NCBI RefSeq assembly: GCF_000963695.1
Contig: NZ_LAJX01000190.1
Location: forward strand, 1 to 33,852
Reading direction: 5' to 3'
Length of the DNA: 33,852 bases
From: Methylocucumis oryzae
GTDB taxonomy: Bacteria > Pseudomonadota > Gammaproteobacteria > Methylococcales > Methylomonadaceae
The stretch's first letter is position 1. The number at the start of each line of letters is the position of its first letter. The notes below the pieces were generated by a model. It saw only the letters and a list, made by a program, of their open reading frames with translations, ran no database searches and was not told the origin of the DNA. Shown here piece after piece: positions 6,000 to 29,253 of this stretch. A program made the translations under genes and the position numbers.

Positions 6000-7051
6000 A
6001 CGCCCGCCTCTTCCATGCAAATGGCTGCAACCGTTTCAGTTGCCTGCAAACGAGCACATTGTTTTGCCGCCGCGCTAATGACGGCTAGCTTAGGCAGCAT
6101 CGTCTTAACCAAATCGGCCAAACTATCGGCTGTTAACGCTTGTTGTTCCAGTACGAAACCCGCCCCTGCAGACACTAAATAGCTGGCATTAGCCCGCTGA
6201 TGGTCATCAATCGCTCCAGGTAACGGGATAAAAATAGCAGGTACACCTAAAGCGGATACTTCGCTAACCGTCATCGCTCCAGACCGGCATATCATTAAAT
6301 CAGCCCATTGATACGCACTAACCATATCATCGATAAACGCCTTAACGTCAGCATCGATTTTCCGCGCTCTATACACCTCTGCAACCTGCTCATACATCGC
6401 TGAGCCGGTTTGATGCATAATTTTCACCGCAGCTAATTTAGCCATAGCCTCCGGCACAATTTCATTTAACACTTGAGCACCTTGGCTACCACCAACGATT
6501 AATACATTCAAAACCGGTTTGTTAAAATCGCGCACCATTAAGGCTGCTTGATTAAACGACTTACGCAAAGGATTGCCAGTACACTCCGCATTAACACTGG
6601 CATCAAAACTACTAGGAAATGCTTCTAAACGACGTGATGCTAGCTTAGCAAGCAAACGATTCGTTGTTCCAGGCACACGATTCTGCTCATGAATCACTAG
6701 TGGTATGCCTAAAAGCTTTGCCATTAACCCACCCGGTGCGGCGGCAAATCCCCCCATACCGAGTACCACACTAGGTTTGCGCCGTTTTAATGCGACAAAC
6801 GCTTGTATAAACGCTTGCATTAATTTGAAAACCGCGCTGACTTTTTGCAACACACCTTTACCGCGCAAACCTGCAACAGCCAAATAATCGATTTCAATGC
6901 CATATTGTGGAGCAACTCTGCTTTCTAAGCCTTTTGCCGTCCCCAACCAAGTTACCTGCCAGCCTTGCTCACGCATATACTCGGCCACAGCGAGTGCCGG
7001 AAATACATGCCCTCCTGTACCTCCGGCCATAATGACAATCCGTTTATTCAT
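5996..7051 (-). CDS. murG: Lipid II synthase MurG (GlcNAc transferase)
   Basis: GT28-family glycosyltransferase that transfers GlcNAc from UDP-GlcNAc to lipid I at the inner face of the cytoplasmic membrane. The 351-residue product starts [20 protein letters not shown] with the first G-loop, followed by [13 protein letters not shown]. The C-terminal domain has the third G-loop [14 protein letters not shown] and the UDP-binding segment [19 protein letters not shown]. It overlaps ftsW by 8 nt at its start and murC by 4 nt at its end, so it is tightly coupled. Frame intact. Confidence 0.97.
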
Positions 7052-8219
7052 GTTTTGCTTTAACTCTCACTCTAGGTTCTGGAATGGTATTGGCTTTAAT
7101 CTCAACGGCTTCATCATAAACACGACATAGCAAACCCACGGCACAGCACATAATAATCATACTACCGCCACCATAACTCATTAACGGCAGCGTCAAGCCT
7201 TTCGTAGGTAAAACTCCCATATTGACACCAATATTAATCAGCGCCTGTAAACCAAACCAAATACCTAAACCGTAAGCCACATAAGACGCATAAAATTGTC
7301 CTATACGCTCGGCTGCCTCCGCTATTTTGAATGCTCGCCAGATAAATAACGAAAACAACGCCATCACCGTCAACACGCCCACTAAACCTAATTCTTCCGC
7401 AACCACAGAAAGTAAAAAATCCGTATGCGCTTCAGGTAAATAAAACAATTTTTGCACACCATTCCCTAGTCCTACGCCTAATACTTTTCCCATGCCAAAC
7501 GAAATCAAGGCATTGCCTAATTGATAACCGCTAGTTTTAAAATGCGTCCAAGGATCTAAAAAGCCAACCACGCGCTCCAAGCGATAAGGCGATACAATCA
7601 CTAACGCTATTCCCGCCGCAGCCACGACACTAAATAAAATACCAAAGTGAACTAAGCGAGCGCCTGCTAAGAACATAAGTGCCATTGCTGTCGCGATAAT
7701 TACGACGGTTGAACCAAAATCTGGCTCTAATAACAGCAAAACACCGGCAACACCGAGTAGCGCCAATGGTTTTAACAATCCTACGATTGACGTGCGCAAC
7801 GAATCCGCCCGCCGCGTCACATAACCTGCCATATAAACAACTGAAAAAAACTTTACTAACTCAGATACTTGAATAGAAATACCTAAATTAAGCCAGCGCG
7901 TACTCCCATTAACGGTCACACCCACGCCAGGAATTAACACAATCACCAACAAAATCACGCCGAAAAAAAATAACTTGATACCCCATTTTTCCCATTGCTG
8001 CATCGGTATTTTGGCAATTAAATACGCCGACGCCATGCCTAACATTAAGTGAGCAAATTGTTTAAATGGATAATTCCAAATATTCGCTAATTGATTTTTA
8101 CCGATATGAATCGATGAAGACACGACCATAACATAGCCTATCGCGAGTAAACCTAAGCACGCTACCATAAGCAGGCTATCAACATGGAAGCGTCTGGTTA
8201 CAGGTAGTCGGCTTGGCAT
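7044..8219 (-). CDS. ftsW: Septal peptidoglycan glycosyltransferase FtsW
   Basis: SEDS-family polytopic membrane protein that polymerises lipid II at the septum with FtsI. The product is about 391 residues, strongly hydrophobic, with roughly ten membrane helices. It carries SEDS signatures: NGSTRWLNLG near residue 105, the LLLEPDFGSTVVI segment, YLPEAHTDFLLSVVAEELG in the large loop and LPLMSYGGGSM near the C-terminus. An in-frame GTG at 8225 is possible, but the ATG at 8219 (MPSRLPVTRR) has an AAGG Shine-Dalgarno 5-6 nt upstream and is preferred. It follows the murD stop closely. Confidence 0.95.
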   Translation of the reverse strand: MPSRLPVTRRFHVDSLLMVACLGLLAIGYVMVVSSSIHIGKNQLANIWNYPFKQFAHLMLGMASAYLIAKIPMQQWEKWGIKLFFFGVILLVIVLIPGVGVTVNGSTRWLNLGISIQVSELVKFFSVVYMAGYVTRRADSLRTSIVGLLKPLALLGVAGVLLLLEPDFGSTVVIIATAMALMFLAGARLVHFGILFSVVAAAGIALVIVSPYRLERVVGFLDPWTHFKTSGYQLGNALISFGMGKVLGVGLGNGVQKLFYLPEAHTDFLLSVVAEELGLVGVLTVMALFSLFIWRAFKIAEAAERIGQFYASYVAYGLGIWFGLQALINIGVNMGVLPTKGLTLPLMSYGGGSMIIMCCAVGLLCRVYDEAVEIKANTIPEPRVRVKAKHE

Positions 8220-17782: not shown

Positions 17783-17996
17783 TCACAACCCCTTCACTTT
17801 TAATTTGCTCTTTAATCTCATTAATGCAGCGAATAGCTGGCCTTGGCTTTCATCTGGCGCATCGTAGGCGAATAAAACCTCATCTGCCCGGATAAAGCGA
17901 TATTTTTCTAATTGCTGGATTTTGCAAACCAAGGGAAATTTAACCTCATACTTATCCACTTCAGATAACCGGCTCAGATAAGCTACAACTTTTCAT
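17783..17996 (-). CDS. Hypothetical 70-residue protein coupled to hsdR
   Basis: An unrecognised small gene whose ATG overlaps the hsdR stop (TAATG). As read, the ATG frame (MKSCSLSEPVI) stops at once. Removing one A from the A4 after ATG gives MKVVAYLSRLSEVDKYEVKF and continues open for 70 codons through KIQQLEKYRFIRADEVLFAY to a stop at 17783. The product is charged and soluble with no signal peptide or membrane helix. Two things support it: the same one-base homopolymer correction is needed in neighbouring genes, and the overlap suggests operon membership. It could be a small accessory of the restriction system. Function unknown. Confidence 0.55.
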
Positions 17997-20900
17997 TACG
18001 CAGACTTCAACAAATCAAACACCACCTTAGCAAACGCCGCCGCTTTGGCTGGATCAGACAAAAGCTGCATCATCTGGTTTTGGTGGGCTTCACTGCTATC
18101 TATAATCGCATCATCAATCGCCTTGCCAAAATCGCCTAGCATCGCTTGCTCTGCGCTGTTATTGGCAATCTGATTCATGACAATTGCGTTTTCGCTGACT
18201 TTGTCTCTAATCGTATAAGCATAATTGACCAGGTCTTTTTCTGTCAGGTTGTCGGTAATAAATAACTCATTCAAACGGCTAATAATCTGCGACAACAGCT
18301 CTTCTTTTCTATCCCTTGGTTTCGCAGTACCTATATCATCCCCAGGCACCAGCTTATAATCCCCAGCATCTTCTTTTAGCTTCAAGTCCTGCTTTTTGAT
18401 AATGGACAGACGGTAGTGACTCAATGTCACGTTATCCAAATCTATGCCGTCTTCTTCCATAAAGGTTTCGCGCAATAAGGGTCGAAGATTACGCGCATAG
18501 AGACTAAGCTTTTCTAAGGCCTTATCGTCGTAATCCACAATCTGCGACATAAACTCATAAAAGCGCACGAACGAGCCTAAATCCTTTTTAAAAATTTCCA
18601 AGGCATCTTTTTCTTGCTTACACTGTTTGAAGCAATTTTCAGCATTCGCAATCAGCACCGCATCGGCTGTCTTTTTGGTGCGCTCAAACATGTCTTTGGC
18701 TTGCTTGTAGGCATCCACCGCCGATTTGTAACGCTTTTGCCAGCGATCAACTGTCGGTTTGCAAATATTAGCCAGTGCCGCATTGCTTTTGCTTTTGACA
18801 AAAAAACGCATCGCAAAACTGCTCCACTTCCTGCCAGGTAAAAATATTGGCGGCGCGTAACTTGTCGTACAAATCAAAGATTAAGTCAGGGTCAGAAACA
18901 TCAGCCAATTCCGCAGTTTGGTAATAAGGCTGAAAGGCTTGCAGAATATCGTCCGGCTCATTAAAAAAATCCAACACAAATGTACCGGTTTCCGCTTTAC
19001 CAGGATAGGTGCGATTCAGGCGTGACAAGGTCTGCACACATTCCACATTAGCCAATTTCTTATCCACGTACATGGCGCACAGTTTAGGTTGATCAAATCC
19101 AGTCTGGAATTTGTTGGCGACCAGCATGACTTGATAATCGTCGGTATCAAAGGCTTTACGCATATCTCGGCTTTTTAGATTGGGGTTCATTGAGCTTTCG
19201 CTAAACTTTTCACCCATCAAACCCTCTGTGTTGGGGTCTTTGCTATTAAATTCCACCTCACCGGAAAAGGCGACCAGCGCATGAATGTTTTGGTAGCCTT
19301 TATCTTTAATGTATTTATCAAAGCTCAGCTTATAGCGCACCGCCTCTTTGCGCGAACTGGTGACGACCATCGCTTTCGCCTGACCGCCCAAAAGTCCCAT
19401 CACGTTGTCTTTAAAATGCTCAACGATGATTTGGACTTTCTGCGAAATGTTGTAGTCGTGCAAGCGCACCCACTGATTAAGTTTGACCTTGGCTTTTTTG
19501 CTTTCAACTTCCTGATCAGTGCCTTGGATTGCTAGCGCCAAGTGATAGGCAACTTTGTAATTGGTATAGTTTTTCAACACATCCAGAATAAAGCCTTCTT
19601 CAATGGCTTGACGCATACTGTAGACATGATACGCAGCAGGCAGATTGTCTTTTGACGGTGCTTGGTTGGGATCAGGACAGCGACCAAACAATTCTAAGGT
19701 TTTGGTTTTTGGCGTGGCAGTAAACGCAAAATAACTGACATTCTTAGACGCACGACGAGACGCTATGGCAGCATCCAAAATATCCTCAGTAGTGACTTCT
19801 TCTTCGTTGTCTTCCGACGCCTCAATCATCAACACTTCTTTAAGCTGACGCGCAGTAGAGCCGCTTTGCGACGAATGCGCTTCATCGGCAATGATTGCAT
19901 AGCAGCGTTCTTTCAAGCTGACGCTGTTTTCTATCGCTCGCAGCACATAAGGAAAGGTTTGAATGGTAACGATGATGATGGGTTGGGATTTTTCCAGCGC
20001 CGCCGCCAATTTTTCAGACTTTGAGCCATCGCCTTCTTTATTGTTAATCCGCCCGACCACGCCATCCACATGCTCAAACTGATAAATGGTGTCTTGCAAC
20101 TGATCATCCAATACCGTTCTATCGGTCACAATAATCACAGAATCAAATTGTTTGTGACCGTTCGCATCGTAGAGTGATGATAGTTGATGTGCGGTCCAGG
20201 CGATGGAATTCGATTTACCGGAACCCGCACTATGTTGAATCAGATATTTATGGCCTGGTCCTTCGCTACGCGCCGCGCTCACCAGCTTTTTGACCACATC
20301 CCATTGGTGATAACGCGGAAAAATCAGCGCCTCTTTCTTGTACTTACGACCTTCCCAATCTTCTTTTTCCTCAATCTGCAAATGAACAAAGCGCGCCAGA
20401 ATGTTGAGCAAGTTTTCTGATACTAAGACTTCATTCCACAAGTAATCCGTCGCATAGCGGTCAACATCATCGGGAATATCGTTACCCGCGCCGCCGTCTT
20501 GCGTGCCTTTATTAAAAGGCAAAAAATAAGTATCAGCACCTTCCAAACGCGTCGCCATATACACTTCGTACTGACTGACCGCGAAATGCACCAACGCACC
20601 GCGCTTAAAAGTTAACAAAGGCTCTGGTTTTTTAGTAACAGGATCAACCGGCAAACGAGTGGTTTTGTATTGCTTAATCGCATTATGAACCGCTTGTTTG
20701 AATTCTGACTTTAACTCCAAGGTCGCAATTGGCAGGCCGTTGACGAACAGCACCAAGTCAATCCGCCAGGCTTTAGCTTTGCTGCCGGTTTCCGCTAACT
20801 GTTGCGCAGTCGCCCAAGGGCTGTACACCAATTCCGGCACAACACGACAACGATTGTTTTGATAACGCGCCAAGGTCTCAGGGTTCAAATCATGCTCAGG

Positions 20901-21246
20901 TTTGAACTGACACAAGCTAAAGCGCGTGCCTCTATCGCGCAATTCATGCCGCAACACACCCAATGTGCCAAAAGTACGCAATTCTTTATTGGCGGCATTC
21001 GGATCAGATTTATTTAACTGACTGGCAACACGCTCCAGAAATTTTTTGCTCTGGATTATTGGGGTAAAGCGCACAGAATTTTTGCCATTGCGTATCTTGG
21101 GTTTCTTGCACAAAGCCCAGCAAATCTTCTGGATACAAAGCTAATTCACGATGGTAATGTTCAGGCGAACCTAATAACCAACCATTAGCGAGCAGGTGCT
21201 GAATAATATCGTTTTGAAAAACACTTTCCCTGGCTTTGTTATCCAT
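17996..21246 (-). CDS. hsdR: Type I restriction endonuclease subunit HsdR (two frameshifts)
   Basis: Motor and nuclease subunit of the type I restriction complex. It starts MDNKARESVFQNDIIQHLL. The PD-(D/E)xK nuclease motif is visible as RIDLVLFVNG...LELK (Asp ~163, Glu ~177, Lys ~179). Superfamily 2 helicase motifs follow: SAGSGKS (~341), DEAHSSQ (~454), FTATP, and a late VANKFQTGFDQP plus QTLSRLNR. Frame is lost twice: an extra A in A6 (21042-21047, repaired as EQKFLERVASQ) and an extra T in T7 (18800-18806, repaired as CDAFFVKSKSN). Corrected length is about 1082 residues, normal for HsdR. The C-terminal third is the helical part that binds the methylase. Confidence 0.93.
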
Positions 21247-21317
21247 GAGAATCTTTCAGTTAAAGTTGTGCGGATAACGCGAACACTGAAGCCGCGTGAT
21301 GTGTGTTAGTTGACGAG

Positions 21318-21731
21318 TCATAACCATTCCAAGGCCTGCCGCCAGTCTTGTATTAAGCCATCCAACAGGGCGTAGCTTCGTTTAGTAACCACCGCTTGCA
21401 CGATGTCATCGTTAAGCTCCAGATAATCATGCACATTGCGAAAGCCGATAATTTTTAACAATTCACCGTGTTGCAGTGCATTTAAGTCACCGCGACTTTT
21501 TAATTCATCTAAAGCTTCGCGGGATTGGCTGACCGATAAGTGATATTTTTGCTGCACAAAATACCGCGCCAGACCAATAAAGGATTCGATATAAACCTGC
21601 AAGGCCCGCTGTATCGCCAGATAATCGCGCTCCGTCCAATCAGCTGTATTTTCCAGGCTGGCTTCGTCCAGGATACGCAGCATTTTGCGTTGATGTCGAA
21701 GCAATGCTTGCTCATAAGCAATATCTCTCAT
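21318..21731 (-). CDS. hepT: HEPN-domain toxin (HepT-like), catalytic motif shortened
   Basis: HEPN ribonuclease toxin partner of an MNT nucleotidyltransferase. I chose the ATG at 21731 (MRDIAYEQALLRHQ) because AAAAGGA lies just upstream; it overlaps mntA by 20 nt. The protein of about 137 residues is all-helical. The catalytic motif of this family is R-x4-6-H-x-Y, usually RN..VHxY. Here the sequence is GFRNVHDYLEL, so only two residues separate Arg and His, as if two residues (6 nt, in frame) had been lost. The toxin may therefore be weakened or dead. The embedding between hsdS and hsdR suggests a role in guarding the restriction system. Confidence 0.85.
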   Translation of the reverse strand: MRDIAYEQALLRHQRKMLRILDEASLENTADWTERDYLAIQRALQVYIESFIGLARYFVQQKYHLSVSQSREALDELKSRGDLNALQHGELLKIIGFRNVHDYLELNDDIVQAVVTKRSYALLDGLIQDWRQALEWL

Positions 21732-22098
21732 AATCCTTTTCCCATTTTGACAAAATACTCTGCTCAACCCGTCTCACATGCGGTACGTTGCGATCAAACC
21801 ATTTAAGCGCGGACATTAAAATGCTGTACTGCAAATAAACCGGTGCGGTTTCCAAGTCAATCACGCTCACCTTAGTATAAAGCTTTAATGCGCTCTCAAT
21901 GGCGGCTTCCAACAACTGCGGGCGTAGCACACGCGCAGTGGCGTCGTTTTCGTAAGTGCTGAACAATACGGCAATATCCCAATCGCTATCTTCACGCGCG
22001 GTTTGTTTAGCGCGTGAGCCATATAAATAAATGGCGTCCACCTGTGCATGCGCGTGAATGACACGGGTTATATTTTCCGCCATGGTTTCTGGGCTCAT
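21712..22098 (-). CDS. mntA: MNT-type nucleotidyltransferase antitoxin (MntA-like)
   Basis: Minimal nucleotidyltransferase of the polymerase-beta superfamily. In characterised MNT/HEPN pairs it AMPylates a tyrosine near the HEPN catalytic motif and so neutralises the toxin. The 128-residue product carries a full GSx10DxD motif (YGSRAKQTAREDSDWDIAVL, about residues 27-46). The ATG overlaps the hsdS stop as ATGA, so it is co-translated with the specificity subunit. The downstream hepT gene overlaps it. The active-site motif is intact, unlike that of its partner. Confidence 0.88.
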   Translation of the reverse strand: MSPETMAENITRVIHAHAQVDAIYLYGSRAKQTAREDSDWDIAVLFSTYENDATARVLRPQLLEAAIESALKLYTKVSVIDLETAPVYLQYSILMSALKWFDRNVPHVRRVEQSILSKWEKDYERYCL

Positions 22099-23490
22099 GT
22101 GGCGACGTCTTCAATACGAGGCAAGGATTCAGGGGCTTGCCAATGTCTGACGTCGATTTTGCCGGTGACGGCGGCGGAGATTAGGGCGGTGCGGCGTTCT
22201 TGCATTAACTCAATGCTTTTTAAGCACTTATATATGAGTTCATCAAGCGTTTCACATTTTCCTTCAATCCATGAAACCAGCTCATTTTGTTCATTTATTG
22301 GGGGGCTTACAAAATAAATGTTGGCTATTCTGCTAAGACCTAGATCATTATTCGTTGCGCCCCGTGTGTAAAGTTGAGATTGTTCATAACAGGCTGTTCC
22401 ATTAAGTGCAAAAGCAAGGAAATACGGATTTACTTTTGATGCGATGATTTTTAATACAGCAACATGAACCCATACTTGAAACGGAAAATCAAAATCAACA
22501 ACACGTGCAACTCCTGTAGTGCCACCTTTTGTAAGCAATACGTCACCTTTCATGGGGCGAACTCTTTTACTGAATTCTATAAAATCATTTTCACTAATGT
22601 ACTTTGCATCTTCTAGCGACCATCGTTCAACCTTAATGTTTCTGGCTGATATGAACATATAACCGTCATCTTGATATTTCGGAGAGAAGTGTGGGCCATC
22701 AACAATTTCTGTTACAACATTTTTAATACGCGAAACAATCCAATGCTCCGGTACCTCACCCAACCACTCAACCCCAGAATCCCGCATAGGCACATCAGGG
22801 TTTAAACCTTTAGTCACGGCATGACTAATCACTGCCTGACGTTTTTTCTTTTAGCAGTTGGATGAGTTGTTGTTGTTTTTCAATCAGGTTGTCTATTTTG
22901 GCGGTTTCGTGGCCAATAAACTCCAAAATATTTGCTTGTTCAGTTTTATTGGGCAATGGCAACAATAGTGCTTTGACAATACTAGAGTTAAGTCCGTGCA
23001 TAATAGAGCCTTTTCCATTAACTTCTATTTGACTTTTTATCTCATGACAGTCATCTATCAGCAATCTAAAATAACGCGGTAATATATTTTCTTCTTTTAC
23101 ACGTAAACGTAAGAGATGCGAATCAATAATGCCTTGTTCCACATCTTGGGGAACCAGTTCGCACTTACCACTTGTTCCCATCATAGTAATAAGCAAGTCT
23201 AAGGGTTGAATTTGATAGACTTGCATTTCTAAGAATTTTAATGAACTGATTCGTCGTTTTCCTAGCGTAAAATCTTTTTTAATTACATTTTCTTGTCCAT
23301 ACACTCTAATTCCATCATCAACCATATCTTCAAGTTTTAATGCACTTCCAAAAGGGCCAATTTTGATTCCCTCCGCTCCATCTTTCAAAAGAAATCTAAC
23401 TTGACGAGTTTCCCAATGGGCTGGAATTGCTCCAAGTGTTTCAACCCCAGAATCCTTATATTCAGGATACGCTTGATAACGACCAGCCAT
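22095..23490 (-). CDS. hsdS: Type I restriction specificity subunit HsdS (frameshift at 22842-22847)
   Basis: DNA-recognition subunit with two target-recognition domains in tandem. The first unit begins near DSGVETLGAIPAHWETRQ and the second near DSGVEWLGEVPEHWIVSR, each followed by a variable domain and a helical conserved region (IDNLIEKQQQLIQLLKEKR; ELIYKCLKSIELMQERR). Frame is lost in the central helical linker. Removing one A from A6 gives LLKEKRQAVISHAVTKGL and joins the halves into about 464 residues, a normal HsdS. The start overlaps the stop of the hsdM-tail copy (TAATG). Two natural half-subunits are possible but less likely because the break lies in a homopolymer. Confidence 0.92.
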
Positions 23491-23608
23491 TATGAATGTA
23501 CCTCTCGCAACAAGTCCATAATCTCTGCGCTCAGAGCATCCAAATCCCTTGGCGGTTGATATTGGTCAAAATGCCGGTTAAACGGTATTTCATAACCGAC
23601 AAGCCATC
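23490..23608 (-). pseudogene. Second copy of the hsdM 3' end (about 36 codons)
   Basis: This segment encodes [20 protein letters not shown], then [13 protein letters not shown], a diverged second copy of the C-terminus of HsdM (24277-24410). It has a 7-residue deletion relative to that copy. Its stop overlaps the hsdS ATG, as expected for the ancestral hsdM-hsdS junction. On its 5' side it is cut abruptly at the REP palindrome. It is best explained as the remnant left when the RAYT/REP segment entered the junction, by insertion or recombination between related alleles. A longer open frame exists but its beginning is only REP sequence. Confidence 0.75.
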
Positions 23609-23692
23609 GTAGGATGGGCAAAGGAGGTACGACGTGCCCATCAAAAATGCCAACCCTGTTTGATGGGCACGCTGTCGCTTTGCCCATCCTAC
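23609..23692. repeat. Inverted pair of REP elements (BIME-like)
   Basis: The outer arms GTAGGATGGGCAAAG (23609-23623) and its exact reverse complement (23678-23692) enclose inner arms CGTGCCCATCAAA (23633-23645) and its exact reverse complement (23659-23671). Each half also holds GATGGGCA...TGCCCATC, itself an imperfect hairpin, so the structure is two REP units facing each other. It lies 6 bp past the RAYT stop, the usual place for REP sequences that the transposase recognises. Confidence 0.85.
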
Positions 23693-23697
23693 TTATT

Positions 23698-24231
23698 CTA
23701 TTCATTGCCGATGTTTTCATGATTTAACTGGATAAATTGATCCTCTAACTCAATTCCTGGCTCGTACCATCCTTTGTGGACGGCTTGGTTAAATGAGCTG
23801 TACGGCCAATCCTGTGGTCTGGAAACGTATCCATGTTTAACCGGATTAAAATGAATGTAATCCACATGCTGCCGCCAATCGTTTTCATCGCGAATGTAAT
23901 GCTCCCAAAACCGACGTTGCCAAATGCCTTTTTCACGTTTTTTGGTCTTGGAATCACTGATTACCCGGCTTGGCAATCCGGCTGAAAATTTACGTTTAAT
24001 CACCATCCAGCGTTTAGAGAAATCGTCATCGTTTTCCGGTAATCGCCATAGGGTATGTAAATGCTCTGGTAAAACGACTATTGCATCAATTTCAAACGGG
24101 TAACGTGATTTGCACAAGCGAAAGGCGGCACGCAATCGCTCTATGTGTTCAATTAATATCGGCTGTCTATTTTCGGTCACTACGGTAAAAAAATAACGCG
24201 CACCGGGTTGATAAAGTCGCCGATATTGCAT
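23698..24231 (-). CDS. rayt: REP-associated tyrosine transposase (RAYT)
   Basis: Y1/HUH-type transposase-like single-strand nuclease of the TnpA-REP group, which acts on REP palindromes. The 177-residue product starts [19 protein letters not shown]. It has the HUH metal motif in [11 protein letters not shown] (about residue 55) and the conserved [20 protein letters not shown] region, then NPVKHGYV, which holds the probable catalytic tyrosine. It sits in the middle of the hsd operon, between hsdM and the duplicated hsdM tail, with an inverted REP pair at its 3' side. Frame intact. RAYTs are usually single-copy domesticated genes, not classical insertion sequences. Confidence 0.92.
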
Positions 24232-24276
24232 TTCATCCCTCTATGATGATTTTCAAACGCTTGCGGATGGCGTTGT

Positions 24277-26605
24277 TCACGAATGCACCTCACGCAATAG
24301 GGCCATAATCTCGGCGCTGACTTTATCCAGGTCTGCGTCGATTTCCACTAAATCCCGTGGTGGCTGGTATTGGTAAAAATGCCGGTTAAACGGTATTTCA
24401 TAACCGACAATCCCAATTTGCTGATCTTTGTCATCCTTTTTACTAGCATCTATCCAGGCGTCCGGCACATGCGGATGGACTTCTTTCAGAAAGTAAGCTT
24501 CGTTGACCGCATTGACGGATTGACTTGGATCAAGCGACACATTCTCATAGTCGCGCAGCTCGCTATCGGCTTGGTATTCTATGATTTGGCCATCTACCGC
24601 GAATAAGCCGTAGATTGGATTAGGTTTAGCGCGATGCGTTTTCTTAATCACTTTTTCCGCCGCAGGATTTTTCCAACTGACAGCGGCTTTAATCTGTTTT
24701 TTGTCTTTTGCGTCCAGGAATACACCCGCTTGTTTACTGGCTGCGTTCAGCACATTATCAAACAAATTCATGTCGTCATACTGTTCCAGTCCGATAATGG
24801 CTTGCAGTTGTCGCGCTTTTAGCAGCAGCTTTTTCTGCTCCAGCCAAAGTGTACGATCCAGCAGATCTTTAAGGTGTTTTTCCTTGAGTTCGCTAAAATG
24901 GTGTTTGCAATATTTCCGTATTGCTTCGCCGTGCGCGCTTAAGTCACCGTAATGTTCGCAATCCGGATGGTCGGACCAGTGATCGTCTGTTGCATATTCG
25001 GCGTAAATCCATTGCATCGCTGCATTTAGTGCACCACTGTCAAAACGTAAGGTTTCTAGTCGCTGATCGCTAAATTGGTAGGACTCGCGTAATGGCCGCT
25101 CTATGGTGATGCGACGATAACCAAATTCATGGGTATTAAAAAATTTTGCTGGCAAAGGTTTTTACAGCTTCAGTTTTGGCATTCGCAGATTGACGACCGC
25201 GATTGCTTTTTTGCTCGCTGGCTTTATTCAGTTCGTAAGGCTCTATCACGGCAAAAGCGCCGAAGCAGCGGGTGATAGTCGCAATATCGTCATCGTCCAT
25301 CACGTTGCGCTTGCTACCTAATGATTTGCGCATTTTTCCGTATAAATTGACACCGTTGATGAGTTGCACTTTTCCTTTGCGTTCAGTGGCTTTTTTATTG
25401 GACAGTATCCAGATATAGGTCGCGATACCGGTGTTGTAAAACATATCGGTTGGCAAGGCGACAATCGCTTCCAATAAATCCGCTTCCAGAATGTAACGAC
25501 GTATTTCCGATTCGCCAGAACCCGCACCGCCAGTGAACAAAGGTGAGCCGTTGAGAATAATACCTATGCGTGCACCTCCATCGGCAGAATCGCGTAATTT
25601 GCTGATCAGATGCAATAAGAACAGTAACGAGCCATCAGAGACACGCGGTAAACCCGGCCCAAAACGACCAGCAAAACCTTTTAGCGTGTGTTCATCTTTA
25701 ATGTCAGTTTCAATCTTTTTCCAGTCCACGCCAAATGGCGGGTTGGAAAGCATGTAATCAAATTTGTCAGCGTAGAGTTGGTCGTTGGATAAGGTATTAC
25801 CCAGTTTGATATTTTTGACTTCTTGCCCTTTGATAAGCATATCCGCTTTGCAAATCGCATAGCTTTCAGGATTCAGTTCTTGACCATACGAACGCATCAC
25901 CGCTTGCGGATTGAGTTCGTGAACGTATTCCATACCCGCAGAGAGAAATCCGCCTGTGCCAGCGGTAGGGTCATAGAGTGTGCGAATAATGCCGGGTTTA
26001 GTCAGTGCTTCATCATCTTCCATGAATACCAGCGAGGTCGTGAGGCGGATAATGTCGCGCGGGGTAAAGTGTTCGCCAGCGGTATCGTTTGAGCTTTCAG
26101 CAAAACGCCGAATCAGCTCTTCAAACACCAAACCCATGTCATGATTGGAAATGACCTTGGGGCTTAAATCAGTAGTTCTGACTTTTTGCACAATCTTGTA
26201 CAGCAGATTGGCATCGTTCAATTGACCAATAAATTCTACAAATTTGAAGTATTCAAAAATCTCTCGCGCATCTTTGGAAAAGCTTTGGATATAGCTTTCT
26301 AAATTGGCAGCGATACCGGCTTCACCCAGTTTGGACAAGTCCATTTTTGAGATGTTGTAAAACGACAAGCCATTTGTGGCTCTGAGTAACAACTTTTCTT
26401 GCGCTTCTTCCGGCAAGTTCATCGCTTGCACTTTCTCGACCTGCGCTAACACAGCTTCTTTGCTATCTTCCAATACGCATTCAAGACGACGTAACAAAGT
26501 AAAAGGCAAAATGATGCGACCGTATTGGCTTTGTTTAAAGTCACCGCGTAGCAAGTCTGCTAATAACCAGATGTAGTCCGCTAAGTTGTTAGGTGTTTGG
26601 TTCAT
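24277..26605 (-). CDS. hsdM: Type I DNA methyltransferase subunit HsdM (frameshift at 25138-25143)
   Basis: N6-adenine methyltransferase subunit of the type I complex. The ATG at 26605 ([13 protein letters not shown]) has AAGGA 5 nt upstream and is preferred over the longer frame. An HsdM N-terminal helical domain is followed by GEHFTPRD (~177), SAM motif [10 protein letters not shown] (~212) and the catalytic NPPF (~288). Frame is lost after KTFASKIF. Removing one base from the A4T6 run gives a join to [20 protein letters not shown] and a long C-terminal extension, total about 775 residues, typical of this HsdM subfamily. It ends in [16 protein letters not shown] and LREVHS, repeated downstream of the RAYT. 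Confidence 0.93.
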
Positions 26606-26825
26606 AGTGTCCTTTCTATTACTTGCGATTGCAGAGTGTGAGGCTGTAGTCAATTAAACGGCGAATAGTACCATGTAGAGAATAGACTAAAAAAGCGTGT
26701 TCTAATATAAATCGCGGTATTCAGTATAGGCTTCAAAACGGCATACACTGAAGTTTCATTTTGGCACTTGCCTGCTTTTAGAAAGCCGCAATCGGCAAGG
26801 CGACTTGGATAATTTGCCTTATTAT

Positions 26826-26942
26826 CTTTGGGCGTTACCTGGGGAGATGTCGCCCTGGTATGACTCGGTTAGATTGTGTAGGCAAACTAAAAAAGGATGT
26901 TGGCAGGATGTATTTGCACGAATTGAAACGGAATTAAATTAG
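26826..26942 (+). pseudogene. C-terminal fragment of a TPR-type glycosyltransferase
   Basis: A plus-strand frame open from 26730 ends LWALPGEMSPWYDSVRLCRQ, then TKKGCWQDVFARIETELN. The pattern PWY.S.RL.RQ...G.W..VF.RI..EL is the usual end of TPR-repeat/SPINDLY-like glycosyltransferases in Proteobacteria. Only about 40 residues match; the bulk of the gene is absent upstream, where hsdM begins on the other strand. I read it as a truncated leftover from before the island was assembled. The family assignment is from memory of the motif. Confidence 0.5.
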
Positions 26943-27030
26943 CAGTAATTTAGCCATTTTGAATTGGTGAATCCGTTATTTACCCCCAAATATCAGGTAA
27001 AATCGCACCCAAATATCGGCCAAACTTACA

Positions 27031-27059
27031 CAAGCCGTGCATTTAAACCCGTTGGAAAA
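27031..27059 (+). repeat. 29-bp direct repeat, left copy (possible att site)
   Basis: The 29 bases beginning CAAGCCGTGC and ending GTTGGAAAA occur again at 29054-29082 in the same orientation. Weaker similarity extends on both sides (CGCACC and CGGCC upstream, AAGAATATG and GAAGAATT downstream), with small gaps. The two copies enclose hicBA, the NERD gene, the XRE gene and the phage-type regulator. Confidence 0.75.
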
Positions 27060-27074
27060 AGAATATGAGAAGAA

Positions 27075-27305
27075 TTAGCTTTTATTTCTTGCCTTAAACC
27101 ATTCGTCTCTATCTATTTCAGCTTGCTTAAGTAATCTTGATAATAAATCAACACTAATTTCTTGCCTATGCGGATTTGGCAACGTAAGAACGCTTTTACC
27201 TTTTACCATATACGGATGTTTACCTCCGCTATAAGGTCCTTCAAACTTTAAATATCTGAGCGTTGCTACTAATTCGCTCCAACTAATAGGAGTTAGCTTA
27301 GGCAA
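27075..27305 (-). CDS. hicA: HicA-family mRNA interferase toxin
   Basis: Double-stranded-RNA-binding-fold toxin that cleaves mRNA. The 76-residue product has the family core SWSELVATLRYLKFEGPYSG, then GKHPYM with the catalytic His, and LTLPNPHRQEISVDLLSRLLKQA. The start appears to be TTG at 27305 (MPKLTPISW), overlapping the hicB stop, with GGAGG immediately before it; no ATG or GTG start is available. It lies downstream of its antitoxin, the hicB-hicA order. Confidence 0.9.
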   Translation of the reverse strand: MPKLTPISWSELVATLRYLKFEGPYSGGKHPYMVKGKSVLTLPNPHRQEISVDLLSRLLKQAEIDRDEWFKARNKS

Positions 27306-27549
27306 CCTCCATTATCCTTGGTGTGCTAATAACCAAACCGTCGATAGGTGGAATTTCTAAACCTCTGCTATTATGAATTAAAATCCAACCTTCAACGCTC
27401 TCGGCTAAATTCTTCCTACACTCTTCCAATGTTTTGCCGGTTGCCCAAACACCGTTTAATCCTTCTATCTCGCCGTAATAGGGTTCATCATCTTCGATTA
27501 ATTCGTAATGTGCTTTATTTAATGCAGCGTCGATATATTCTCTAATCAT
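27298..27549 (-). CDS. hicB: HicB-family antitoxin
   Basis: Partner antitoxin of HicA, with a partially degraded RNase H fold. The 83-residue product has the hallmark YYGEIEGLNGVWATGKTLEE, then CRKNLAESVEGWILIHNSRG. It is the short form without an obvious separate C-terminal DNA-binding domain. AGGTAACA precedes the ATG, and the ten bases AGGTAACAAT are repeated 16 bp upstream. It overlaps hicA by 8 nt. Confidence 0.9.
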   Translation of the reverse strand: MIREYIDAALNKAHYELIEDDEPYYGEIEGLNGVWATGKTLEECRKNLAESVEGWILIHNSRGLEIPPIDGLVISTPRIMEVA

Positions 27550-27573
27550 TGTTACCTAGCCTTATTGTTACCT
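27548..27573 (-). promoter_or_regulatory. Direct repeat spanning the hicB start
   Basis: The ten bases ATTGTTACCT (plus strand) occur at 27548-27557 and 27564-27573. On the coding strand each reads AGGTAACAAT, so the ribosome-binding site and first start-codon bases are duplicated. This may be an operator for hicBA autoregulation or a local duplication. Confidence 0.35.
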
Positions 27574-27632
27574 GTTCTGGCGTTGTCCTTTTTAAATACT
27601 TTCTTAAGGTTACGAAACTATTTTTCTAAGGC

Positions 27633-28272
27633 TTATTGCTTATATTTGCTTTGTATATACTCAATGTGTTCTTCATCTACCTTATTTGAACGCTTACTTC
27701 TTTTGTACTCTATTTTTCCAATTGCTTCATATACTTGATTTTCGTCTAATATGTCGTTATTAAATTGCGATATATATTTGACTAAGTCATTTAGTTTTAC
27801 AACGTTTGTTCGGTAAATTAGTTTTTATTTCGACTTCAGAATTAGTAAACACAACTATTGAAATTATCCATTCTTTTGATATGCCTACTACATTGCTCAA
27901 ATGATAGATGTGACCATTATTTTGTAATAAGGGATTTAAGAATTTATATTTTTTTTGACTATTTTTGAATGTTTGCGTCCATTTGTGCTGTTTTTCATTA
28001 CCATAAATCCATCCTTTATAGTCCTTTGTTTCGATTATAAAAATACCTTTTCTTGAAAATAAAATGTGATCAATTTGAGTTGAACCGTTAGTGGTAGGGA
28101 TTGTGATATTGTTTTTTAAATGATACCCATGCTCTTCAATAGATTGTAGCGTTATCCTTACCTTTTTTTCACCTTCGTTCTCTTTATAGATTAGATTTTT
28201 TCTTCCTGTTTGATAACCAATGCTAAATGGAATTGCTAAAAAAGCTAACGTGACTATCATTTCAACTATCAT
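27633..28272 (-). CDS. NERD-domain protein, membrane-anchored (one frameshift near 27807-27810)
   Basis: NERD is a nuclease-related domain found in mobile and defence loci; the exact reaction is not established. The product starts MIVEMIVTLAFLAIPFSIGY, a probable N-terminal membrane helix. It has the NERD core STQIDHILFSRKGIFIIETK (Asp...Glu-x-Lys) followed by DYKGWIYG. As read it stops at 27787. Removing one A near CCGAACAAACG extends it through VVKLNDLVKYISQFN to a lysine-rich end at 27633, total about 212 residues. AAGGA lies about 10 nt before the ATG. Confidence 0.8.
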
Positions 28273-28392
28273 TTATCTTAATTCCTTTATTTCCTTTCTA
28301 TATAGCTATAATTAGCTCTATCTAGCTTACAAGTTAGCCTAGCTTGTCTAGCGCGTCAATCCTTCGCGTCCATTTCTTTTTAATTTGTTCGG

Positions 28393-28661
28393 CTATTTTG
28401 TACCCGTTAATAGATTTTGTTTTTCTCGAATCTCCTCTAGTTCTGGGCTGATTTGTCCAGCTTCAGGAATTGTTAAAGCCGTAGTAAGCTAATAAGCGTA
28501 TTGAGGCCATCTTTTTACAATTGCTTCAATATGTTCCTCGTTTGCTCTTTGGATACCGTTTTCAACGTTTGCCCAGGTTTTTGCCTTTAACCTGTTTCAG
28601 CCTCAAACATTGTTCTATCCATCGATAAAGATTCTCTAAGTTTTCTGATTCTATTTTTCAT
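28393..28661 (-). pseudogene. XRE-like phage-type regulator, broken by a frameshift and an internal stop
   Basis: The frame starts MKNRIRKLRESLSMDRTMFE at 28661, stops after AETG, and continues in another frame as KAKTWANVENGIQRANEEHI, then RWPQYAY, a stop (28489-28491) where Trp is expected, and LTT. Repairing one T at 28589-28590 joins the frames into about 89 codons ending at 28393. The sequence pattern (short HTH with RWPQYA.WL.TG) is that of small prophage or XRE regulators. The frameshift resembles other homopolymer errors here, but the extra TAG suggests real decay or a second error. It is divergent to the gene at 28736. Confidence 0.6.
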
Positions 28662-28670
28662 AAATCACCA

Positions 28671-28690
28671 AATATTAGTTGACTAATATT
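28671..28690. promoter_or_regulatory. Palindromic operator candidate between divergent regulators
   Basis: AATATTAGT (28671-28679) and ACTAATATT (28682-28690) form a perfect 9-bp inverted repeat with a 2-bp centre; a further TAGTCA half-site follows at 28691. It lies 10 bp upstream of the XRE start and about 45 bp upstream of the divergent gene, the usual place for a repressor operator. Confidence 0.6.
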
Positions 28691-28735
28691 TAGTCATTGA
28701 TTTTAACCAGCCACAAACAGGCTAAGGGGTCAATT

Positions 28736-28969
28736 ATGGAACAAACACCAATGCAAGACAACACGATGGAAAAACAGTTAATGCAGCTACCGATAAGCGT
28801 TAACGTCTCTTTACCAATGATTCATCAAAGGCAATCCGCCGAACTTAACGGCTTATCTGAAGGCATGAGGGGTTGGATAGATAACGGCTACTTACTCGTT
28901 AAAGTGGGGCGTTACACAATGGTTAACCTCGTTCAACTCGCTGAACGACTCAAAAACGGAACGCTATAA
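28736..28969 (+). CDS. Small phage-type regulator/excisionase-like protein
   Basis: A 77-residue protein on the strand opposite to its neighbours. The ATG at 28736 (MEQTPMQDNTME) has AAGGGG 7 nt upstream; a longer TTG-initiated frame is unlikely. The core HQRQSAELNGLSEGMRGWID, then NGYLLVKVGRYTMVNLVQL, resembles winged-helix excisionase/AlpA-like regulators, including those of filamentous phages, where a short HTH is followed by G-x-V-x-x-W and K-x-G-x-x-x-V-N. The pairing with a divergent XRE gene across a palindrome supports a prophage-type switch. Assignment is by pattern only. Confidence 0.65.
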   Translation: MEQTPMQDNTMEKQLMQLPISVNVSLPMIHQRQSAELNGLSEGMRGWIDNGYLLVKVGRYTMVNLVQLAERLKNGTL

Positions 28970-29053
28970 AACTAGCCAATCAAGCAAAAGGAAAAACAAC
29001 CATGACAACGAATGACTTACCCACTTTACCGCCACGCACCGGAATTCCTCGGC

Positions 29054-29082
29054 CAAGCCGTGCATTTAAACCCGTTGGAAAA
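29054..29082 (+). repeat. 29-bp direct repeat, right copy (possible att site)
   Basis: Identical over 29 bases to 27031-27059, same orientation, about 2.0 kb apart. It lies about 95 bp beyond the 3' end of tRNA-Lys and inside a truncated gene. No part of it matches the tRNA itself, so it is not the standard tRNA-derived att sequence. Confidence 0.75.
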
Positions 29083-29133
29083 TCAAAATGGAAAGAATAT
29101 GGAAAGAATTTCCCTATCCTGAGCGGTGGGCAT

Positions 29134-29164
29134 AAAAAAAAGCCAGTTAAAAAACTGGCTTTTT
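29134..29164 (-). terminator. Rho-independent terminator of tRNA-Lys (looks bidirectional)
   Basis: AGCCAGTT (29141-29148) and AACTGGCT (29153-29160) form an 8-bp stem with a 4-base loop, extended by flanking A/T runs on both sides. On the minus strand it lies 13 bp after the tRNA CCA end and is followed by a T7 tract. It would also stop plus-strand transcription leaving the island. Confidence 0.9.
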
Positions 29165-29176
29165 CAATGACTTATA

Positions 29177-29253
29177 TGGTGGGTCGCATGCGATTCGAAC
29201 GCATGACCATCGCATTAAAAAGTGCGGTGCTCTACCGGCTGAGCTAGCGACCC
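29177..29253 (-). tRNA. tRNA-Lys(UUU), CCA encoded, 8-nt anticodon loop as read
   Basis: A complete cloverleaf is visible: acceptor GGGTCGC/GCGACCC, D-arm GCTC/GAGC, T-arm ATGCG-TTCGAAT-CGCAT, discriminator A and an encoded CCA. The anticodon loop reads CTTTTTAA, 8 nt with five T, where tRNA-Lys normally has CTTTTAA; total 77 nt instead of 76. The anticodon stem has four pairs plus a C-A mismatch at its base. The extra T fits the homopolymer errors elsewhere. Its position after queC is conserved in gammaproteobacteria, and this tRNA is a known integration site for islands. Confidence 0.95.

Follow-up and report, generated by a model that had tools for sequence, protein, structure and literature searches.

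The segment of about 2 kb that lies between two identical 29-bp repeats beside a tRNA-Lys gene of Methylocucumis oryzae is very probably what is left of inovirus prophages that had integrated at this tRNA, next to queC, with the enclosed genes representing a cargo/immunity arm and the repeats representing 3' ends of integrase genes. Comparison with prophages of related bacteria supports a reading in which the segment would be such an arm minus the other ~8-10 kb of its phage. Remnants of this kind are already known, and a decayed inovirus prophage arm is the most likely description; the unit cannot move on its own. The stretch of DNA analysed (the window, 33,852 nucleotides) is one entire contig of a genome assembly of 4.58 Mb in 389 contigs, 88.6% complete. 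Other genomes are cited below by G numbers and individual loci by L numbers.

The two repeats agree at 29 of 29 positions (27031-27059 and 29054-29082, on one strand, 2023 bp apart), a pairing for which our own estimate of the chance expectation in 33.9 kb is about 2e-9. The preliminary description of two identical, co-oriented copies around five genes was accurate, and its suggestion of a duplication at the root of the pair is retained here; the weak similarity that it saw extending on both sides is borne out on the right and not on the left. Right-side similarity resumes past an 11-bp gap with 15 of 17 bases identical, a score that 0 of 500 shuffles reached (2.6% of 500 in a weaker extension anchored at the repeat edge), whereas the similarity on the upstream side is no better than chance, being equalled by 28% of shuffles, or 83% when anchored. 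Exactly two copies occur in the genome at up to three mismatches, rather than the scattered set that had been named as evidence against a bounded element. The repeat was absent from 295 other genomes (27-mer, up to three mismatches), from viral contigs (exact 21-mer) and from genome contigs (exact 20-mer).

The features of the segment and of its right-hand flank are as follows.

27031 to 27059, plus strand: left 29-bp copy, matching the integrase-tail profile as a C-terminal tail (frame QAVHLNPLE-KEYEKN, stop at 27076-27078)
27058 to 27075, plus strand: degenerate 11-bp-spaced arm-like pair AAAGAAT/GAAGAAT (up to two mismatches between units; putative function)
27075 to 27305, minus strand: HicA toxin gene (PF07927, 1.2e-7)
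27298 to 27549, minus strand: HicB-like (UPF0150) antitoxin gene (PF21748, 3.8e-31)
27787 to 28272, minus strand: NERD-domain nuclease-like gene with a hydrophobic N-terminus (PF08378, 1.1e-30)
28399 to 28663, minus strand: inovirus C-type HTH repressor gene, broken by a frameshift and an in-frame TAG (upper boundary approximate)
28736 to 28969, plus strand: Xis/Cox-like protein of 77 aa (phrog_1864, 5.7e-8)
29002 to 29032, plus strand: apparent start of the gene after xis (ATG at 29002), with the putative deletion junction in about this stretch
29033 to 29122, plus strand: integrase 3' end, APEFLGQAVHLNPLENQNGKNMERISLS then stop, which includes 29054-29082 (tail profile 22.0 bits; left boundary approximate)
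29089 to 29106, plus strand: arm-like pair, TGGAAAG twice, 11 bp apart (putative function)
29135 to 29166, no strand assigned: terminator-like hairpin beside tRNA-Lys, found by eye
29177 to 29253, minus strand: tRNA-Lys gene (attachment site), its anticodon loop one A longer than in relatives

Each 29-bp copy has the appearance of the closing codons of a tyrosine integrase gene from a filamentous phage. On the plus strand they share the tail QAVHLNPLE..., the right copy reading ...APEFLGQAVHLNPLENQNGKNMERISLS and the left ...QAVHLNPLEKEYEKN, each followed by a stop; the corresponding ends are YLNQAVALNPLENPKV in the G019 inovirus prophage's integrase and YLNQAVQLNPLEN in a related integrase of G066. 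A tail profile was built from 24 relatives of the G019 integrase, their inovirus context not being confirmed for each, and among 1595 six-frame peptides of the window the two repeats took ranks 1 and 2 (right copy 22.0 bits, E 9.8e-6; left copy 12.8 bits, E 0.0075). Because the top score in 60 mononucleotide-shuffled windows was 16.5, and two of the 60 exceeded 12.8, the right copy stands by itself, and the left copy, with only about 9-12 recognisable integrase codons and a score dependent on the right copy, leans mainly on its identity to it. BLAST gave short alignments, 29 bp at 83% (E 0.019) between the left copy and the end of the G066 integrase, and 23 bp at 91% (E 0.006) between the right region and the integrase end on contig C123 of G011. 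By eye, the surroundings of the right copy look like the G019 integrase gene at its 3' end. The right copy also stands in a native context of integrase 3' end, 11-bp-spaced arm-like repeats, terminator and tRNA-Lys. The absence of an integrase gene between the repeats, as reported earlier, stands beside repeats that themselves read as integrase ends.

When 27 loci were scanned with the same profile (cut-off E 0.05), two matched, L074, itself a profile member, and L076; the 15 loci with C|Xis but without Zot or Rep gave no match. By eye, a G001 contig shows an integrase-end likeness and a similar repeat pair within its first 93 bases, on the left of tRNA-Lys; the profile did not pick this up. 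Two other identities for this DNA were set aside. The ORF at 29002 is not a convincing 41-aa gene, having no in-frame stop at the end of the peptide and the integrase tail in another frame; the only other match to its peptide was in G046 (E 0.007), with no recognisable phage genes in the surrounding 3 kb. A dif/Xer site, an idea suggested by the 28-29 bp length, was rejected by eye against the dif consensus.

The 11-bp-spaced repeats look like integrase arm sites. The same 7-mer pair follows the integrase and recurs left of the repressor in 11 of 18 prophages (up to two mismatches in all; L144 and L160 of the 20 Zot/Rep-bearing loci were omitted, their Int being on the other side), and in the other 7 it was not found at both ends. 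When the right-hand stretch was shuffled, 5 of 360 controls showed such a recurrence. The window's own TGGAAAG pair occurs at both ends of the L162 prophage, and a close variant of it in L163, placed at tRNA-Lys by likeness. In the window the left repeat leads directly into the degenerate pair abutting the hicA stop, just as a GTTGACA pair abuts it in G010. Between the left arm and the integrase end, seven prophages match over 18-32 bp, mainly in the arm sites, with local scores of 19-34; the corresponding score in the window is 67, and the left copy is therefore likely to be an addition. Since the others match mainly in arm sites, an integrase tail on the left would be unexpected in a single prophage and expected at a phage/phage junction.

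Relatives carry inovirus prophages of ~10-13 kb in the order att - cargo - repressor | xis - coat/Zot/Rep - integrase - att. One of ~10.3 kb in G011 (Int, Rep, Zot, coat-like, Xis and C) occupies the orthologous tRNA-Lys/queC site and is flanked on both sides by att copies. The left end in G010 runs att, GTTGACA pair, hicA stop, hicA, hicB, with Rep, Int, tRNA-Lys and queC on a separate contig. An inovirus-like prophage in G045, also with Zot and Rep and bounded by tRNA-Lys-like att repeats, has att, HicB, HicA, NERD and C | Xis at its left end and Int and att at the other; one of its genes seems by eye to be interrupted by an insertion-sequence-like transposase ORF, and its repressor has only two relatives among named genome contigs. 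Its functional order is that of the window except that HicA and HicB are swapped, and because its HicB belongs to a Pfam family different from that of the window HicB, the cargo is analogous and not orthologous. The remnant thus resembles the prophages of G045, G011, G010 and G019 in gene order, C|Xis pair and arm-like repeats, and those of G011 and G010 in tRNA site as well; unlike it, all four keep phage core genes, those of G010 split over contigs. The comparison supports a hicBA-NERD-regulator group as the likely make-up of an inovirus early arm.

Individual genes fit this pattern. A HicA domain with an adjoining HicB-like partner points, on Pfam matches, to a predicted type II HicAB toxin-antitoxin pair, and the neighbouring product carries a NERD domain whose homology runs on in another frame to 27645, the reading frame being broken near 27790. 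The divergent C repressor|Xis pair of same-order inoviruses is present, its repressor broken; over 28399-28578 this repressor shares 61.7% identity with residues 32-91 of the G019 C repressor. A G011 relative of the Xis-like protein matches both phrog_1864 and a Cox-like excisionase family; the window protein also matches two Synechococcus phages weakly (E 3e-3, 40%), and it gave no plasmid match and no relative in viral contigs. Zot (PF05707) was not found in the 88.6% complete, 389-contig genome, from which phage contigs may be missing, and the segment is for this reason classed as a remnant and not as a prophage. The G011 Rep query, run without a positive control, likewise had no match there, and the tyrosine integrase beside the tRNA is a 3' end only, the G019 integrase as query having matched nothing at E 1e-30 or better in the same 88.6%. 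The left flank (26654-27031) gave one unconvincing match among the loci compared (47 bp, 77%, E 0.004) and by eye a likeness to the sequence left of tRNA-Lys in G002.

A sequence of events can be envisioned from these pieces. Two prophages would have stood in tandem at tRNA-Lys, or a resident prophage would have taken in a phage circle by recombination. Where phage met phage, the att core could then have been lost, perhaps by recombination between short arm-like repeats, so that an integrase tail came to abut hicA and the left-hand phage was reduced to that tail alone. A second deletion, of ~8-10 kb by subtraction from the G011, G045 and G019 prophages, would have cut out the interior of the right-hand phage, its coat, Zot, Rep and integrase genes included, starting shortly behind xis and ending at the integrase tail. 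Tandem prophages best account for the left copy, which has the look of a phage/phage junction that has collapsed; the second att core is absent and the tandem origin not directly visible, and the deletions are read against diverged prophages, no relative having the same phage. The preliminary description was thus right to see a mobile element with repeats on its two sides and its own integrase gone, and mistaken in taking for a complete small element what looks like the early arm of a much larger prophage.

A variant of this explanation, which we regard as a serious minority possibility, starts from a defective phage circle of ~2 kb, running from hicA to the integrase tail, that entered a resident prophage at its integrase tail through shared homology and so left the repeats as a Campbell duplication; homologous recombination between them could in principle release the segment again. 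Such an origin would account for repeats that are identical despite differing flanks, for an interval of exactly one repeat-to-repeat unit, and for a left copy running straight on into the arm region and hicA, the arrangement of a circle lacking the att core. Against it, no free circle or further copy was found beyond the two in the genome, and the order of deletion and insertion is not readable from one genome.

Less probable again, and in our judgement improbable, is that near-identical phage copies were collapsed or misjoined in a fragmented, indel-rich metagenome assembly. The 389 contigs and 88.6% completeness give this idea some force, as do two single-base length differences nearby. At 29217 the anticodon loop of tRNA-Lys contains five A against the four of relatives, with the result that ARAGORN gives the tRNA no name; the extra base is probably a sequencing error, and otherwise the anticodon loop is enlarged. 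A homopolymer run in queC is likewise longer by one. Together these differences suggest indel errors, and part of the apparent decay may be artefact. The differences downstream of the two tails are orderly, however, the in-frame TAG of the repressor is no homopolymer error, and the right-hand join to the tRNA is in native order.

Integration has a hotspot at this tRNA-Lys: by our own table count, 13 of 61 genomes carry short copies of its 3' part (match starting at query base 1-8 and ending at 41-59), and many relatives have, by eye, a GGCATAAAAAA hairpin similar to that of the window on the left of the tRNA or of a partial copy. The genes beyond the tRNA we take, from ORF reading, to be queC and then queE. 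In relatives att at the tRNA-Lys/queC site consists of ~45-55 bp of the tRNA 3' end, and this sequence has one copy in the window (33-mer, up to three mismatches) and one in the genome (26-mer, up to two), so that in place of the tRNA-derived direct repeats found at both ends of an inovirus prophage there is a single tRNA 3' end. That the 29-bp repeats are attL and attR of a small non-autonomous element mobilised in trans, as first proposed, is very improbable in spite of the perfect direct repeat, the accessory genes within, the xis-like gene and the adjoining tRNA gene, because relatives have the tRNA 3' end as att at this site, both copies read as integrase C-terminal tails and not as a recombination core shared with attB in empty sites, and neither an occupied nor an empty copy, including the predicted single copy in relatives, appeared in the searches of 295 other genomes, viral contigs and genome contigs given above.

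The repressor-side cargo slot was surveyed across the order, in which an Xis profile matched 35 of 301 genomes, the window's own included. Among the better Xis matches 37 loci were picked and annotated; Zot or Rep was present in 22, and omission of the Synechococcus phage record L020 and of L161 (the same place as L033) left 20 distinct genomic loci with a divergent C|Xis pair. A hydrophobic N-terminus (Kyte-Doolittle peak of at least 1.6, a cut-off picked after the data were seen) marks the longest ORF adjoining the repressor at 17 of the 20 loci, compared with 6 of 30 background ORFs; membrane anchoring of the cargo proteins is predicted from that feature alone. Pfam was run on 22 of 52 cargo ORFs plus the overlapping HicA ORF of L031, and the counts of loci are lower bounds: Mrr_cat at least 6, HicA at least 5, and NERD, PLD-like and Ser/Thr kinase at least 1 each. 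G010 adds an Mrr gene with HicAB, and PADLOC gave weak partial matches of NERD to PglW and of Mrr to PDC-S02 and type IV enzymes. The slot repeatedly carries HicAB and nuclease genes with hydrophobic N-termini. A DUF29 protein also recurs beside the repressor, by Pfam in L142 and L160 and by sequence likeness in L032.

Within the window, HicAB and the NERD gene may still be acting as an addiction or defence cassette. More doubtfully, the whole att-repressor slot could be a standing defence and superinfection-exclusion locus in which a membrane-anchored NERD or Mrr nuclease, often with HicAB, would attack incoming phage DNA at the inner membrane, the host having kept the cassette after loss of the phage. 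A literature search found no paper combining inovirus and NERD domain.

Known systems supply several parallels. Pf-type Pseudomonas filamentous prophages are described as having tRNA att sites with short duplications, a tyrosine integrase, an HTH-type excisionase and a toxin-antitoxin pair among their accessory genes, with duplicated attP sites in some chromosomes (PMC7549136). The remnant shares with them the tRNA site, the excisionase and a toxin-antitoxin pair, keeps the 3' end of an integrase gene, and differs in its deleted core genes, in HicAB at the repressor-side end and in the NERD gene (PMC7549136). Cryptic inoviruses, according to an inovirus survey, carry toxin-antitoxin and superinfection-exclusion genes, some in tandem arrays, and tandem insertions were treated separately there, 800 sequences having multiple pI proteins (PMC6813254). 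The remnant is like these in being integrated with toxin-antitoxin cargo and unlike them in having no morphogenesis gene, so that a pI-based search would be expected to miss it (PMC6813254). The kinase-kinase-phosphatase cargo of Pf6 places inovirus accessory genes in lysogeny control and phage defence (PMC11341870); L144, with a Ser/Thr kinase adjoining the repressor, resembles Pf6, and the window differs, its cargo being HicAB and a NERD nuclease of predicted function (PMC11341870).

A perfect direct repeat around an accessory module beside a tRNA can therefore be two leftover gene ends and not recombination sites. The analysis points to a possible means of spotting inovirus remnants from which the morphogenesis gene that serves for detection is gone, and the recurring HicAB and nuclease cargo beside inovirus repressors offers a testable class of candidate superinfection-exclusion genes.

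Elsewhere in the window, positions 17996-26653 hold a type I restriction locus with HsdM, HsdR and two HsdS-type ORFs (one just under the Pfam cut-off), and inside it a Polbeta nucleotidyltransferase/HepT-like pair at 21318-22098. In this locus, at 23494-24413, another gene end is duplicated around an insert. The insert holds a Y1/IS200-type transposase ORF (23698-24231), and the sequence found as an imperfect copy on each side of it (49 nt at 78%, 64 nt at 91%) belongs to the 3' end of the neighbouring ORF at 24277-25155. L034 in G100, one of the 15 C|Xis loci scanned above that lack Zot and Rep, is a possible second inovirus remnant of the same design: at 6667-7500 its C|Xis genes are accompanied by a TGGCTAC pair spaced 11 bp and by a hairpin immediately before tRNA-Met, with no Zot, Rep or Int.
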